A stretch of 64,000 bases of DNA. It comes from Prochlorococcus sp. AG-402-K16 (lineage in GTDB: Bacteria > Cyanobacteriota > Cyanobacteriia > PCC-6307 > Cyanobiaceae). Numbering within the stretch: the first letter of the stretch is position 1; every line of letters starts with the position of its first letter. A program made the translations under genes and the position numbers. The stretch spans positions 62,001 to 126,000 of the forward strand of contig QCIH01000003.1 of the NCBI GenBank assembly GCA_003216795.1. Direction: 5' to 3'. Below, piece by piece: positions 56,461-60,198 of this stretch. Under the pieces are notes generated by a model. The model saw only the letters and a list, made by a program, of their open reading frames with translations. It did not search any database and was not told the origin of the DNA.

Positions 56461-56546
56461 GGAGAGGTGGCTGAGTGGTCGAAAGCGAACGACTCGAAAT
56501 CGTTTAATAGGGTAACTATTCGTGGGTTCGAATCCCACCTTCTCCG
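56461..56546 (+). tRNA. tRNA-Ser (anticodon CGA)
   Basis: An 86-nt class II tRNA. GGAGAGG pairs with CTTCTCC (one GU) with discriminator G. The anticodon stem AACGA/TCGTT frames CTCGAAA with anticodon CGA, then comes a long variable arm (TTAATAGGGTAACTATT region), and the T arm is GTGGGTTCGAATCCCAC. It reads UCG codons. Accessory DNA begins directly after it. Confidence 0.97.
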
Positions 56547-56565
56547 TTTTTTAGAGTCCCCTTGT

Positions 56566-56586
56566 AGACCCGTATGGGTCTTTTTT
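56566..56586 (+). terminator. Rho-independent terminator after tRNA-Ser
   Basis: AGACCC GTAT GGGTCT followed by T5 forms a compact hairpin 20 nt after the tRNA end. Confidence 0.75.
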
Positions 56587-56659
56587 ACGGGATTTATAGG
56601 CAATAACAGGTGCTTAAAGTTTCATATAAACCCTAAATTTCTACTTTATGTCAAAAATT

Positions 56660-56735
56660 GTGGTGGTGGATGTGGTGGAGGATAAAAAGTGTGTGGTGGT
56701 GGATATTTGATAGACAAAGTTTCGTGGTGGTGGAT
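56660..56735. repeat. G-rich 12-bp repeats, first cluster
   Basis: The unit GTGGTGGTGGAT occurs exactly at 56660, 56693 and 56724, with a one-mismatch copy (GTGGTGGAGGAT) at 56672. The surroundings are otherwise AT-rich, so the G-runs stand out. The same unit returns twice in tandem at 58994. No protein-coding explanation fits both clusters. Confidence 0.85.
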
Positions 56736-56829
56736 TCCTCAAGATCCATTGTCAATAAAGGTATTTTTAAAGGTTAACTTGGCACGGTATTAGAAATTTA
56801 ATACTTTTTAAAAGATAACATTTTAATAA

Positions 56830-58344
56830 TTAACAATTACCCCAAGGACCAGGATACCAATCTGATGCTTTAAGTTTTTTAGACTTATTTATATACCTAC
56901 AACCTGACGGGTAAGAATACTCATTTTTATAAATACCTTTCCAATAATACAAATTACCCTCATAGGGATTTTCTTTGATTGCTTTATCTAATATCTGAAC
57001 TGCTTTTTTATTCTTATTATTTTTTGAATAAAATGTTGCTAAATCTATCTTCAGGTCAATATTATCAGGGTTCATAATTATTAGTTTTTCCATATCTTCT
57101 ATTGCCCCTGTATGATTTTTTCTATTTTTAATTTTTAACCACGCCCTATAAAAAAGTGCATTTTCATAATGATAATCCCTTTCGGATATCTTTATCTGGG
57201 CAATCAAATCATAGTCCGCAATCGCTTCTTTATATCTCCCTAATCTTTCATTATCCAAAGCACGATTAAAATAAAAATTTATCTCTTCAGAACCACTTAT
57301 TGATGATTTTAAATATTTTCTATCTTTCCTTTTAAATTTTTCAGAAAAACTGTTTATACTCAAATTTTTTTGAACTTTTTCTTCTGATAGATTAATTCTT
57401 TTTAATTTATTATTTTCGTCATCCATATTTTTCGGTTCAATTTGAATCATTTTGCTATTAGATTTTTTCGACTCTGGTACTTTTTTAACCACTTTATAAA
57501 ATGGGTAAGATTTTTTTATTTCGTTGCCAAGAACTAAGGATAAAATTACAGAAAAAATTATAAAAAAATTATTAATAGTTTTTTTGGATTTAGAAAAAAA
57601 TCTATTTTTGATTGGCGGATTATTTTTAAATTTATTTGTCTCTTCATTTTTATTACCACTTTCCTCTATCAAAATATTGAGAGACCTTTTTTGTAATAAA
57701 GGTTTTAATTTTCCGTAAAAATCTTTAGAAAATAAATTTATTCTTGTTATGGTCCAAGAAACTTTCTTGGACAACATCATTCCTAGTTTTTCCCAATTTC
57801 CTAAATTGAATAAAGTTTTTCTAAGAAAATAATATATGGAACGGATTATTCTTTTTACTCTTTCTTGATTTGTTTCATTTGAAACAACTTTATAAATAAA
57901 TTTAGATACTTCAAGAGTGATATTGTAAATAAATTTAGAGACTAAAAAAGAGACATTCCAACTAATTTTTAGAATGAAATAAGAAATATTTAAAGAGAGT
58001 TTTAGTAAAAAAAATGATATTTTTAATAAGTAAAAAGTAATTTCAAGCAATCTAGTAATTAACCTAATGTGCTGAGTACCAATATCTTCATTGTCGCCAG
58101 TATGTAATTGAAATCCTGGACCTGATGGAAATGAAGGGATTAAAGAATCTTCGTACCTTTTTTGGGCAAATCTTTCAAACTCTAAGTCCTTTACTTCATT
58201 GACAAAAACATGTCCATCTGTTGAATATTGAGACTTAATTAAATCAGTTATAGAACCAGTATCTGAATAATCAGTAGTAACTTTGAAATTTCTAAGTCTA
58301 CCCTTAAAATCTCTATATTTACCTCTAACCTGATATTCTGGCAT
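56830..58344 (-). CDS. Unrecognised membrane-associated protein with 11-residue repeats and C-terminal TPRs
   Basis: About 504 residues from ATG 58344; a TTG two codons upstream is also in frame. The N-terminal 55 residues form a small beta/alpha domain (YQVRGKYRDFKGRLRNFKVT). Residues 99-153 are five consecutive 11-residue repeats (such as SFFLLKLSLNI, SYFILKISWNV, SFLVSKFIYNI), giving an amphipathic helix of 11/3 type. A single membrane span follows near 260-280, then a basic/acidic linker and about four TPR-like repeats (about 350-475) with ALDNERLGRYKEAIADYDL and NPDNIDLKIDLATFYSKN. The C-terminus is Cys- and Trp-rich. I know no family with this layout. Confidence 0.65.
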   Translation of the reverse strand: MPEYQVRGKYRDFKGRLRNFKVTTDYSDTGSITDLIKSQYSTDGHVFVNEVKDLEFERFAQKRYEDSLIPSFPSGPGFQLHTGDNEDIGTQHIRLITRLLEITFYLLKISFFLLKLSLNISYFILKISWNVSFLVSKFIYNITLEVSKFIYKVVSNETNQERVKRIIRSIYYFLRKTLFNLGNWEKLGMMLSKKVSWTITRINLFSKDFYGKLKPLLQKRSLNILIEESGNKNEETNKFKNNPPIKNRFFSKSKKTINNFFIIFSVILSLVLGNEIKKSYPFYKVVKKVPESKKSNSKMIQIEPKNMDDENNKLKRINLSEEKVQKNLSINSFSEKFKRKDRKYLKSSISGSEEINFYFNRALDNERLGRYKEAIADYDLIAQIKISERDYHYENALFYRAWLKIKNRKNHTGAIEDMEKLIIMNPDNIDLKIDLATFYSKNNKNKKAVQILDKAIKENPYEGNLYYWKGIYKNEYSYPSGCRYINKSKKLKASDWYPGPWGNC

Positions 58345-58618
58345 TTTCAAAAATATTTAATTGACCCTAAAAATTTTTTTTTAATTATTTGTTTCCTCTT
58401 CACATTTATTAATTAACTTTTTTGTTATTGTCCTAATTCAAAGATAATTCCAAAAATTTGAGGGAATTATAAAAAAAATGTTTGTTGTTTTAATTAGTTG
58501 GTTTATATATATTGATTGTGCATTTTTTGAATTAGTAAAAACAAAATTTTACCTATATGCATTAGAAATTTTTTAATTATATAAAAGCGTAATTTTATTT
58601 TAATTATCCAATCAAATC

Positions 58619-58843
58619 TCAATCTTGGTTTTTTCTCTCAAATTCCTTAAATGATGATTGAAGTTGACCTTTATTTTCAATATCTGTATCTTCATATCCT
58701 TTCAACTTTTTCCAACGAACATAGAGTGCTTGCAACCACCAACTATCAGTCAAAGATTTTGCTCCATTTTTTAATAAATTACTTTCTTTTTGATTAAAAA
58801 TTTGTGAATCAATCATTTCTTTTTTCCAATTATTTGAATCCAT
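58619..58843 (-). CDS. Small hypothetical protein
   Basis: A 74-residue polar protein with SWWLQALYVRWKKLKGYED near the middle, suggesting one amphipathic helix; the rest is rich in Lys, Glu, Asn and Ser. No signal peptide or membrane span is visible. It lies in accessory DNA with the 11-residue-repeat protein gene 268 nt downstream on the same strand. The family is not recognised, and it could be island-specific. Confidence 0.45.
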   Translation of the reverse strand: MDSNNWKKEMIDSQIFNQKESNLLKNGAKSLTDSWWLQALYVRWKKLKGYEDTDIENKGQLQSSFKEFERKNQD

Positions 58844-58942
58844 AAACTAAAAAATTAAAATCCTATATTAACTTTATTAGAAATTTTTAATTTTTCTAAT
58901 AATATACATACCGATTTAAAGATTTTTCTTAAACTCGCTACT

Positions 58943-58996
58943 TTTATTGACCTTCCTATATTGTTCCAAGTGGTCCCTATATATCCCAAAAATGTG
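58943..58996. repeat. 54-bp diverged direct repeat, copy 1
   Basis: Aligns without gaps to 60981-61034 with 42 of 54 identical bases by my count, ending in the shared CAAAAATGTG. The mismatches do not favour third codon positions in the open reverse-strand frame, so this looks like a DNA or RNA element and not a gene remnant under coding selection. Confidence 0.75.
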
Positions 58997-59017
58997 GTGG
59001 TGGATGTGGTGGTGGAT
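58994..59017. repeat. G-rich 12-bp repeat, second cluster (two tandem copies)
   Basis: Two perfect head-to-tail copies of GTGGTGGTGGAT, directly following the AAAAAT that ends the 54-bp repeat. The first cluster, at 56660, also follows a TCAAAAATT stretch. Confidence 0.85.
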
Positions 59018-59086
59018 ATTCACATAATCACTCAAAAATAAGTCCCATATAGTCCAGTGTCTGCCTATGTTGCTTGAGATGTAATT

Positions 59087-59100
59087 TCACCCTCTCCGTT
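59087..59100 (+). other. Partial tRNA-Ser 3'-end copy (attachment-site remnant candidate)
   Basis: TCACCCTCTCCGTT matches 12 of 14 bases of CCACCTTCTCCGTT at the 3' end of tRNA-Ser (56535-56548), in the same orientation. Elements that insert in tRNA genes leave such a copy at their far end. The match is short, so chance is possible. Confidence 0.4.
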
Positions 59101-59343
59101 AATTAATAGTTTCTAGAAATCCTAAAAATAAAATAAGAGGGGATTTATTTGCACTCTTCGAGTTGTCAGCACCTCACTGTCCACAAAGGCGTTGAAAAAT
59201 TTTCACTCCTGAATTTTTTCTAATCCTACTGAATGGGAAAAGATAGTCGCGACAAACACAAAGCACTAATACTCGGGTATTAATACTCTATTAATTTCAA
59301 TTGAATAGGAGGATAATTAAGGAGTAGAGATATAGGAGGTTTT

Positions 59344-59502
59344 ATGAGACTCACCACTCCATTCACTGCCCTTAGAAATGCAACTTCAGACATATGGAAA
59401 ATGCATGATTTTAATTATCAACTACCAAAAAATCAAAGACAAGATTATTGGGAAAAAGAATGCATGGACCACCCAACAAATTCTCATTGCAAAGTATACT
59501 AA
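59344..59502 (+). CDS. Small soluble protein with a strong ribosome-binding site
   Basis: A 52-codon ORF read directly from the DNA: MRLTTPFTALRNATSDIWK at the N-terminus, QDYWEKECMDHPTNSHCKVY at the C-terminus, with two Cys. AGGAGG lies 5 nt before the ATG, a perfect Shine-Dalgarno that most genes in this window lack. A hairpin terminator follows 25 nt after the stop, so the gene is a complete small transcription unit. The function is unknown. Confidence 0.65.
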   Translation: MRLTTPFTALRNATSDIWKMHDFNYQLPKNQRQDYWEKECMDHPTNSHCKVY

Positions 59503-59525
59503 AGGTAATATAAATTCAAGCCATT

Positions 59526-59552
59526 AAAAAGACTCTTTTGAGGGTCTCTTCT
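59526..59552 (+). terminator. Terminator after the 52-residue gene
   Basis: AGACTC and GGGTCT pair (one GU) around TTTTGA, followed by a mixed CTTCTTCT tract in place of a pure T run, 25 nt after the stop codon. Confidence 0.6.
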
Positions 59553-59595
59553 TCTAAGTAAGTAGATATTCTTTTAGTATAAAACTAATGAAAAT

Positions 59596-60198
59596 ATGGC
59601 TATTAATAATTCAATATCTAAATATGATTGGCAGTATCTTGTAACAGGAATTTTTTTAATTTCAATTTTTATTTTTACAGATTTAATTGGGGTTCTTGAT
59701 AAAGAGTATTTTTACTTTGTACCAAGATTTATTAGTGATCAACCCTATAGGATTTTCACATCAATCCTAATCCATGCAGATTTAAATCACTTATTAAGTA
59801 ATCTTGGTGGGATAATTATTGCAAGATATTTTTTGATGAGACTTGGAATCGAAAGCAGATTTTTTTATCTGAAATTTATTTTAATTTGTTCTCTTTTAAA
59901 TTTTTTAATTATCTGGTTTTACGAAAAGATCTTATGGTATTTTAATATCTTTCCGAATTATGCCGCTTTAGGATTTAGCGGAATAATTTATGCTTTATTT
60001 GGATTTTTACTATTAACTTCTTTTTATGGAAAGAAATATTTTTTAGGTAAAGAAATTGGTTTTAAGTCCAATTATGAAGTGCAAAAAATGTTAAAGACAA
60101 TATGTCTTATAGGTTTGATATTCTCTTTTTTGCCAAGTGTTAGTTTATTAGGGCATTTAAGTGGATTTATTGCAGGGTGTTTTTTATTCTTGATTTAA
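59596..60198 (+). CDS. Rhomboid-family intramembrane serine protease
   Basis: A 200-residue polytopic protein with six hydrophobic segments. The nucleophile Ser128 is in ALGFSGIIYALFG (rhomboid GxSG), His187 is in LLGHLSGFIAG, and LIHADLNHLLSNLGG (58-72) carries the conserved H...H...N of TM2. All catalytic residues are therefore present. Rhomboids cut single-span membrane proteins; the target is unknown. It lies in accessory DNA beyond tRNA-Ser and is monocistronic. Confidence 0.85.
   Translation: MAINNSISKYDWQYLVTGIFLISIFIFTDLIGVLDKEYFYFVPRFISDQPYRIFTSILIHADLNHLLSNLGGIIIARYFLMRLGIESRFFYLKFILICSLLNFLIIWFYEKILWYFNIFPNYAALGFSGIIYALFGFLLLTSFYGKKYFLGKEIGFKSNYEVQKMLKTICLIGLIFSFLPSVSLLGHLSGFIAGCFLFLI

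Follow-up and report, generated by a model that had tools for sequence, protein, structure and literature searches.

The 64,000-nt window analysed here, a stretch of contig QCIH01000003.1 of Prochlorococcus sp. AG-402-K16, contains a small cassette integrated at a tRNA-Ser(CGA) gene and carrying the gene for a 504-residue protein, P0001 (Table 1). P0001 joins a short N-terminal domain, also present in cyanophages, to five 11-residue repeats within a long predicted helix, a predicted transmembrane helix and a C-terminal TPR tail that recurs in other Prochlorococcus proteins. On balance, and by a modest degree of preference only, we interpret P0001 as a chimeric, mobile, membrane-tethered extracytoplasmic TPR adaptor; it looks recently assembled, and more like an adaptor than a bacterial perilipin or synuclein. 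This interpretation and the rival ones weighed below are not mutually exclusive.

Table 1. Features of the P0001 gene and of the insert that carries it (positions in the window).
Feature	Position	Strand	Basis
tRNA-Ser(CGA), integration target	56461..56546	+	ARAGORN; 3′ end CACCTTCTCCGTT (56536-56548) = attL
2.55-kb insert holding the gene	56549..59100	.	missing from at least seven relatives
GTGGTGGTGGAT repeats on the left side of the insert	56659..56735	+	repeat searches
Gene for 504-aa protein P0001	56830..58344	-	ATG 58344, stop 56830; ORF and translation
Common tail from codon 319: TPR domain and conserved Cys482, Cys504	56830..57389	-	DNA homology to sister insert stops at 57389
TPR helices, residues 351-468	56941..57294	-	Pfam TPR_19 1e-7, TPR_2 2.4e-7; AlphaFold2
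Predicted transmembrane helix, residues 256-274	57523..57579	-	hydropathy, insertion energy near 0 kcal/mol (approximate); predicted helix 248-279
Second long predicted helix, basic amphipathic, residues 160-230	57655..57867	-	AlphaFold2 pLDDT 64-78, lower in full-length model
Single predicted helix, residues 88-155	57880..58083	-	AlphaFold2 pLDDT 83-89 in repeat; 88-154 in full-length model
Five 11-residue repeats, residues 99-153	57886..58050	-	shuffle tests on protein and DNA; 33-nt direct repeat 57890-57955
N-terminal domain, residues 1-54, beta-beta-alpha-beta	58183..58344	-	alignment, genome and phage searches, AlphaFold2 pLDDT 91-95
74-aa ORF in insert, function unassigned	58619..58843	-	ORF list
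Recurrent ~113-bp end module: GTG-rich direct repeats, conserved core, tRNA 3′-end copy	58988..59100	+	genome comparison
attR, displaced tRNA 3′-end copy CACCCTCTCCGTT	59088..59100	+	comparison with empty-site relatives

The P0001 gene is cargo of an insert at tRNA-Ser(CGA); upstream of it, together with the tRNA, lies an idiA-like gene (iron-binding-protein type). The site is empty in relatives L073, L074, L077, L079, L081, L095 and L103, where the tRNA 3′ end CACCCTCTCCGTT continues into a homologue of positions 59088-59600 (84-91% identical). In the window, 2.55 kb separate this 13-mer from the tRNA, and the 3′ end of the tRNA itself is CACCTTCTCCGTT. A regenerated tRNA together with a displaced fragment marks site-specific integration (the Islander principle, PMC4383910), and a regenerated tRNA and a displaced 3′-end fragment are both found at this locus, with the empty site in relatives. 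A sister insert of the same layout, with a protease-TPR gene, is present in Prochlorococcus sp. AG-347-G20; DNA homology between the two ends at position 57389 (codon 319) and resumes exactly at 59088. Within 56549-59100 there is no integrase, and no integrase-sized ORF besides P0001, and three integrase-family genes lie elsewhere in the source genome. For the 74-aa ORF, neither Pfam (E ≤ 0.001) nor PADLOC (E ≤ 0.01) yielded a match. Insertion into a tRNA gene and a displaced copy of its 3′ end are features in common with tRNA-targeted genomic islands and tycheposons, from which the insert differs in its size of only 2.55 kb, its lack of an integrase and its recurrent end module. Tycheposons, in the definition cited in PMC10872708, measure 4-200 kb, encode a tyrosine recombinase and occupy one of seven tRNA genes; the insert departs from this definition in its length and in the lack of a recombinase inside it.

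Matches to the end module of the insert, partial ones included, occur in 57 of 265 Prochlorococcus genomes, and wherever the tRNA is within reach the module lies downstream of tRNA-Ser(CGA) in the same direction. One locus (L120) contains two modules, and at L138/L113 tRNA and module almost adjoin. Copies of the module (L109-L119; L120-L139) terminate inserts with very different cargo in front of them. Cassettes of this kind may use an integrase supplied in trans. In other strains the site is either empty or occupied by a type III-like DNA methyltransferase, by sugar-metabolism-type genes or by other TPR proteins. The methyltransferase, recognised by PADLOC, is found at L107, and L075 holds a similar-looking pair of large ORFs; these large genes indicate that the slot can hold defence genes. 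Another cargo of the site (L090, 2653-3594) encodes an exported pilin-like protein with a type IV pilin-like N-terminus and a long tract of EEARKA repeats. P0001 itself gave zero PADLOC matches. The protease of the sister insert matches the PADLOC RT-Protease models through its trypsin-like domain only, which does not make it a defence gene.

The P0001 reading frame is real: codon usage is in-frame across every segment, the repeat included. Searches with the whole protein yielded a single relative among genome contigs, which matches the tail, and none among viral contigs or phages; against the PDB, sequence search gave weak general matches for the TPR region only. Residues 1-289, compared with 266 Prochlorococcus genomes, returned matches to the N-terminal domain and one spurious match interrupted by stops (L035), and these congeneric genomes hold no credible relative of residues 60-318. 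The middle region is thus represented by one sequence only, and no conservation stands behind the structure or function of the repeat. Such a single occurrence, the chimeric breakpoint, the hydrophobic and AT-rich character of the middle and the already degenerate first repeat unit would also be expected of a fusion ORF in decay and without function, in which an insertion had by accident brought a phage-type small gene and AT-rich DNA in front of a TPR gene fragment, with the repeat as a product of slippage in low-complexity DNA. This is the main sceptical rival to a functional protein. It is weakened, though not removed, by 504 open codons with coding-type usage in each segment, by a helical phase kept across 55 residues and by the intact fold of the N-terminal domain, and we consider a transient fusion ORF rather unlikely.

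The family to which the N-terminal domain belongs consists of stand-alone proteins about 54 residues long, encoded by Prochlorococcus, Synechococcus and cyanophages. Members were found in 9 of 266 Prochlorococcus genomes (source genome counted), in some other picocyanobacteria and in cyanophages P-TIM68, S-B05, S-B43, RN05-S and RB11-B. The 54-aa hypothetical proteins of P-TIM68, S-B43, S-B05 and picocyanobacteria have the same beta-beta-alpha-beta domain, 24-46% identical to residues 1-54, but unlike P0001 they stand free, without a membrane part. The closest structural match to the domain in BFVD is the P-TIM68 protein (E 3e-5, TM 0.93 to target). As judged from sequence comparison, the family, which has no match in Pfam or NCBIfam, is uncatalogued. 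Its consensus (L038-L048, L058-L060, L062-L065) reads GRYTDxxGRSHNFxxxSDxxDRRxIEDLVKAxYPA, with a predicted LX/eL20-like fold. The solved structures closest to the N-terminal domain are ribosomal LX/eL20 domains, a weak resemblance (Z 5.8; Foldseek E 0.02, TM 0.69 to target); one family member likewise matches Ribosomal_L18A weakly (E 0.15), and PDB sequence search with the domain gave no significant match. The likeness to LX/eL20, drawn from predicted structure, is too weak for a call of homology. At L066-L068, L070 and L072, the first ~22 residues of the family are fused to another ORF, followed by a tandem coding-like repeat (KEAYQKELNNKGVGSQIGKSLFNKFSINEILLSS).

Residues 99-153 divide without indels into the five 11-mers that the earlier note had delimited. 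Its description of these repeats as exact holds for unit length and spacing and fails for sequence, in which units have only 1-6 of 11 residues identical; unit 1 is weak, degenerate and low-scoring among the five. Summed over all pairs of units, the BLOSUM62 score is 135, whereas shuffles of the same 55 residues gave -46 ± 23 with a maximum of 69, and none of 20,000 shuffles attained the observed score. Among periods of 6-18, the best is 11, and per residue pair the repeat scores 1.24 against 0.32 for the next best among the window's 74 ORFs of 80 aa or more. The periodicity ends abruptly at 98/99 and 153/154. Similarity peaks at lags 4, 7, 11, 15, 18, 22, 26 and 29, which is the signature of an alpha-helix with 11 residues per three turns. 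At the DNA level, adjacent 33-mers have 19.5 of 33 bases in common, compared with 12.0 ± 1.3 after codon shuffling (0 of 5,000 shuffles as high); the last two units agree at 24 of 33 bases, and the best direct repeat pair is 57890-57922/57923-57955 (79%). Since neighbouring 33-bp units are alike in their DNA, local tandem duplication is the most likely way in which the array expanded.

In the AlphaFold2 model of residues 1-300, the N-terminal domain is followed by a linker, the helix of residues 88-155, a break at 156-159 and the helices 160-230 and 248-279. The alignment behind this model comprises 13 sequences, all of which except the query cover the N-terminal domain alone (two phage rows were left out). 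AlphaFold2 alignments were thus shallow, and the pLDDT of the helical middle, modelled from its own sequence, should be read with caution. The full-length model repeats the same layout at lower confidence and adds the TPR helices at 351-468. The 11/3 helix proposed at the outset is therefore borne out by the lag pattern together with a single continuous predicted helix, and the small N-terminal domain, the membrane span and the TPRs (about 351-468) are likewise recovered by hydropathy, Pfam and AlphaFold2.

How such a helix might sit in a membrane was assessed from its chemistry. Plotted on an 11/3 wheel, the residues at position 6 (FKKKK) fall with those at position 10 (KNNNK) into a single stripe at 131-164 degrees; at positions 2, 4, 7, 9 and 11 every unit is hydrophobic. 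The polar stripe is narrow (K at 6, K/N at 10) and the hydrophobic moment low (0.26); 64% of the residues are hydrophobic, 22% aromatic and 15% charged. Summed on the interfacial scale, windows of 19 residues mostly come to -4 to -7 kcal/mol, which is strongly favourable. On a translocon-type scale, which is an approximation coded for this analysis and not a published predictor, insertion of the repeat costs about +3 to +5 kcal/mol as against about 0 for residues 256-274, the poor insertion being due to the Lys or Asn that every unit brings. These properties of the repeat fit a helix lying in the membrane plane better than a soluble one with reversible lipid binding. Alternatively, the repeat could form a pair of transmembrane helices (a hairpin) or a re-entrant segment; Lys and Asn would then lie within the bilayer, and P0001 would be polytopic. 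The hydrophobic content and Kyte-Doolittle 19-mer means of 1.5-1.6 in parts of residues 95-127, with 1.60 reached inside the repeat itself (109-127), are compatible with this arrangement, but no 19-residue window escapes the Lys plus Asn/Lys that recur every 11 residues, the approximate insertion energy is adverse, and the predicted helix, more than double the length of a bilayer-spanning one, runs unbroken and without a turn. Prediction as ordinary transmembrane helices is what the earlier note had named as telling against its reading; the one-sequence model has an unbroken helix and no hairpin. We regard the polytopic arrangement as improbable, although worth retaining, and take the repeat to be a deeply seated in-plane helix, with a hairpin less likely. 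Of the roles suggested in the earlier note, among them that P0001 may shape membranes, only anchoring can be reasonably inferred.

A further alternative is that the helix forms a hendecad (11-residue) coiled coil, oligomerising in or on the membrane instead of binding lipid lengthwise. A period of 11 is that of hendecads, a second long helix comes after the first, and in whole-model comparison the helical part is structurally closest to Vipp1/PspA and coiled-coil chains. The Vipp1/PspA/ESCRT-III group of membrane remodellers is marked by a long helical hairpin fold. The matches to the Vipp1/PspA structures 6zvr and 9hzm (Z 9.1-9.2), however, fall below about 13, the value that the tool's own note gives for chance matches of long helices, and five of 11 strongly hydrophobic positions, covering more than half of the helix, are excessive for a soluble dimer. 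A coiled coil of this kind is unlikely.

The comparison with perilipins, apolipoproteins and synuclein, made in the earlier note, finds no support in the composition. The indel-free 11-residue period and the 11/3 helix are indeed common to the P0001 repeat and to Plin4, apolipoprotein A-I and alpha-synuclein. The 11-mers of apolipoprotein A-I, alpha-synuclein, Plin3 and Plin4 are 35-47% hydrophobic and 0-7% aromatic (PMC5889406, Table 1), and by this standard of moderate hydrophobicity with few aromatics the P0001 repeat falls outside the group, being far more hydrophobic and aromatic, with a narrow polar stripe and a low moment. None of these families appears among the Pfam and NCBIfam matches of P0001. 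P0001 and the 11-mer lipid helices have their period in common, not their chemistry. Unlike its counterparts, the P0001 repeat also precedes a transmembrane helix, which makes reversible binding to, or coating of, lipid bodies unlikely. Accordingly, a surface helix of the perilipin or synuclein kind, coating or bending membranes or lipid bodies, is the least credible of the readings, and very improbable, although the 11/3 periodicity and the single long helix would still conform to it. PARCEL amphipathic repeats (PMC2996958) were also considered and excluded, their unit being 25 residues.

The TPR tail has clear relatives. Both TPR_19 and TPR_2 exceed the Pfam cut-off, with helix pairs at residues 351-468. 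The tail is 83-84% identical to proteins of two other Prochlorococcus genomes (L036/L002; L050), where it stands behind a signal peptide and a trypsin-like protease; in L050, at a contig end, the protease is present only in part. The AG-347-G20 insert (L036/L104) shares its tRNA-Ser site and orientation with that of P0001, and its protease-TPR protein is 83% identical to P0001 over the C-terminal 186 residues; the N-terminus of this protein is a signal peptide and trypsin-like (Trypsin_2) protease, without the N-terminal domain, the 11-mers or the internal membrane span of P0001. That the insertion site also carries this TPR tail with a protease domain in front of it (L036, 5188-6561; L050, 1498-2439) amounts to swapping of N-terminal modules. 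More distant tails (32-38% identical) follow a signal peptide in L003, and a zinc-ribbon-like domain and membrane span in L053 and L054. Like P0001, the latter two proteins consist of a small N-terminal domain, a single span, a linker and a related TPR tail with a GC...C end; they differ in their zinc-ribbon-type N-terminal domain (by eye, CxxC pairs), in a tail only 32-34% identical and in the lack of an 11-mer helix. The genes at L053 (1474-2532) and L054 (928-1971) adjoin one for an exported protein with a HEYAHH metallopeptidase-like motif. The earlier statement that no protein of this type had been described thus stands for the architecture as a whole, and not for two of its four parts, the TPR tail and the N-terminal domain.

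All relatives of the tail keep a GC... motif and a Cys at or beside the C-terminus. This pair of cysteines, together with the signal peptides of relatives, suggests an exported, disulphide-capped TPR domain. Export is inferred here because relatives carry signal peptides or spans; with 7 Lys/Arg in the 20 residues on either side of the span of P0001, the positive-inside rule is indecisive on topology.

In the preferred reading as an adaptor, P0001 would have been built by joining a 54-aa domain of cyanophage or host type, an orphan helical anchor region and the tail of an older exported TPR protein. The N-terminal domain would face the cytoplasm, and the 11-mer helix, about 100 angstroms long, would lie flat within the inner leaflet, its Lys/Asn stripe turned to the headgroups. 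Together with the basic second helix and the transmembrane span, it would fix P0001 firmly in the membrane. The disulphide-capped TPR domain, in the periplasm or thylakoid lumen, would bind a partner there, and P0001, being fixed in the membrane, is thus proposed to act as a membrane-tethered adaptor.

Given that the cargo of other strains at this site comprises restriction-modification, sugar-metabolism-type and exported proteins, any benefit conferred by P0001 is, by analogy, most likely strain-specific, in envelope or phage interaction. It is tempting to speculate, although we hold this to be doubtful at present, that P0001 represents a Prochlorococcus family of cassette genes that swap N-terminal modules on a common exported TPR receptor, here with a new in-plane anchor, the very hydrophobic 11/3 helix, and a phage-type cytoplasmic domain, as a fast-evolving system of envelope or phage interaction. 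A 55-residue 11/3 helix of such hydrophobicity would provide a useful test of the boundary between in-plane anchoring and transmembrane insertion. The tRNA-Ser(CGA) gene is a recurrent cassette site, and its recognisable end module offers a handle for systematic gene finding. P0001 combines a domain of cyanophage type, a 33-bp repeat of recent duplication and a reused TPR tail, and so points to a small mobile cassette as a place where new membrane-protein architectures are assembled, in a marine phototroph that is very abundant.
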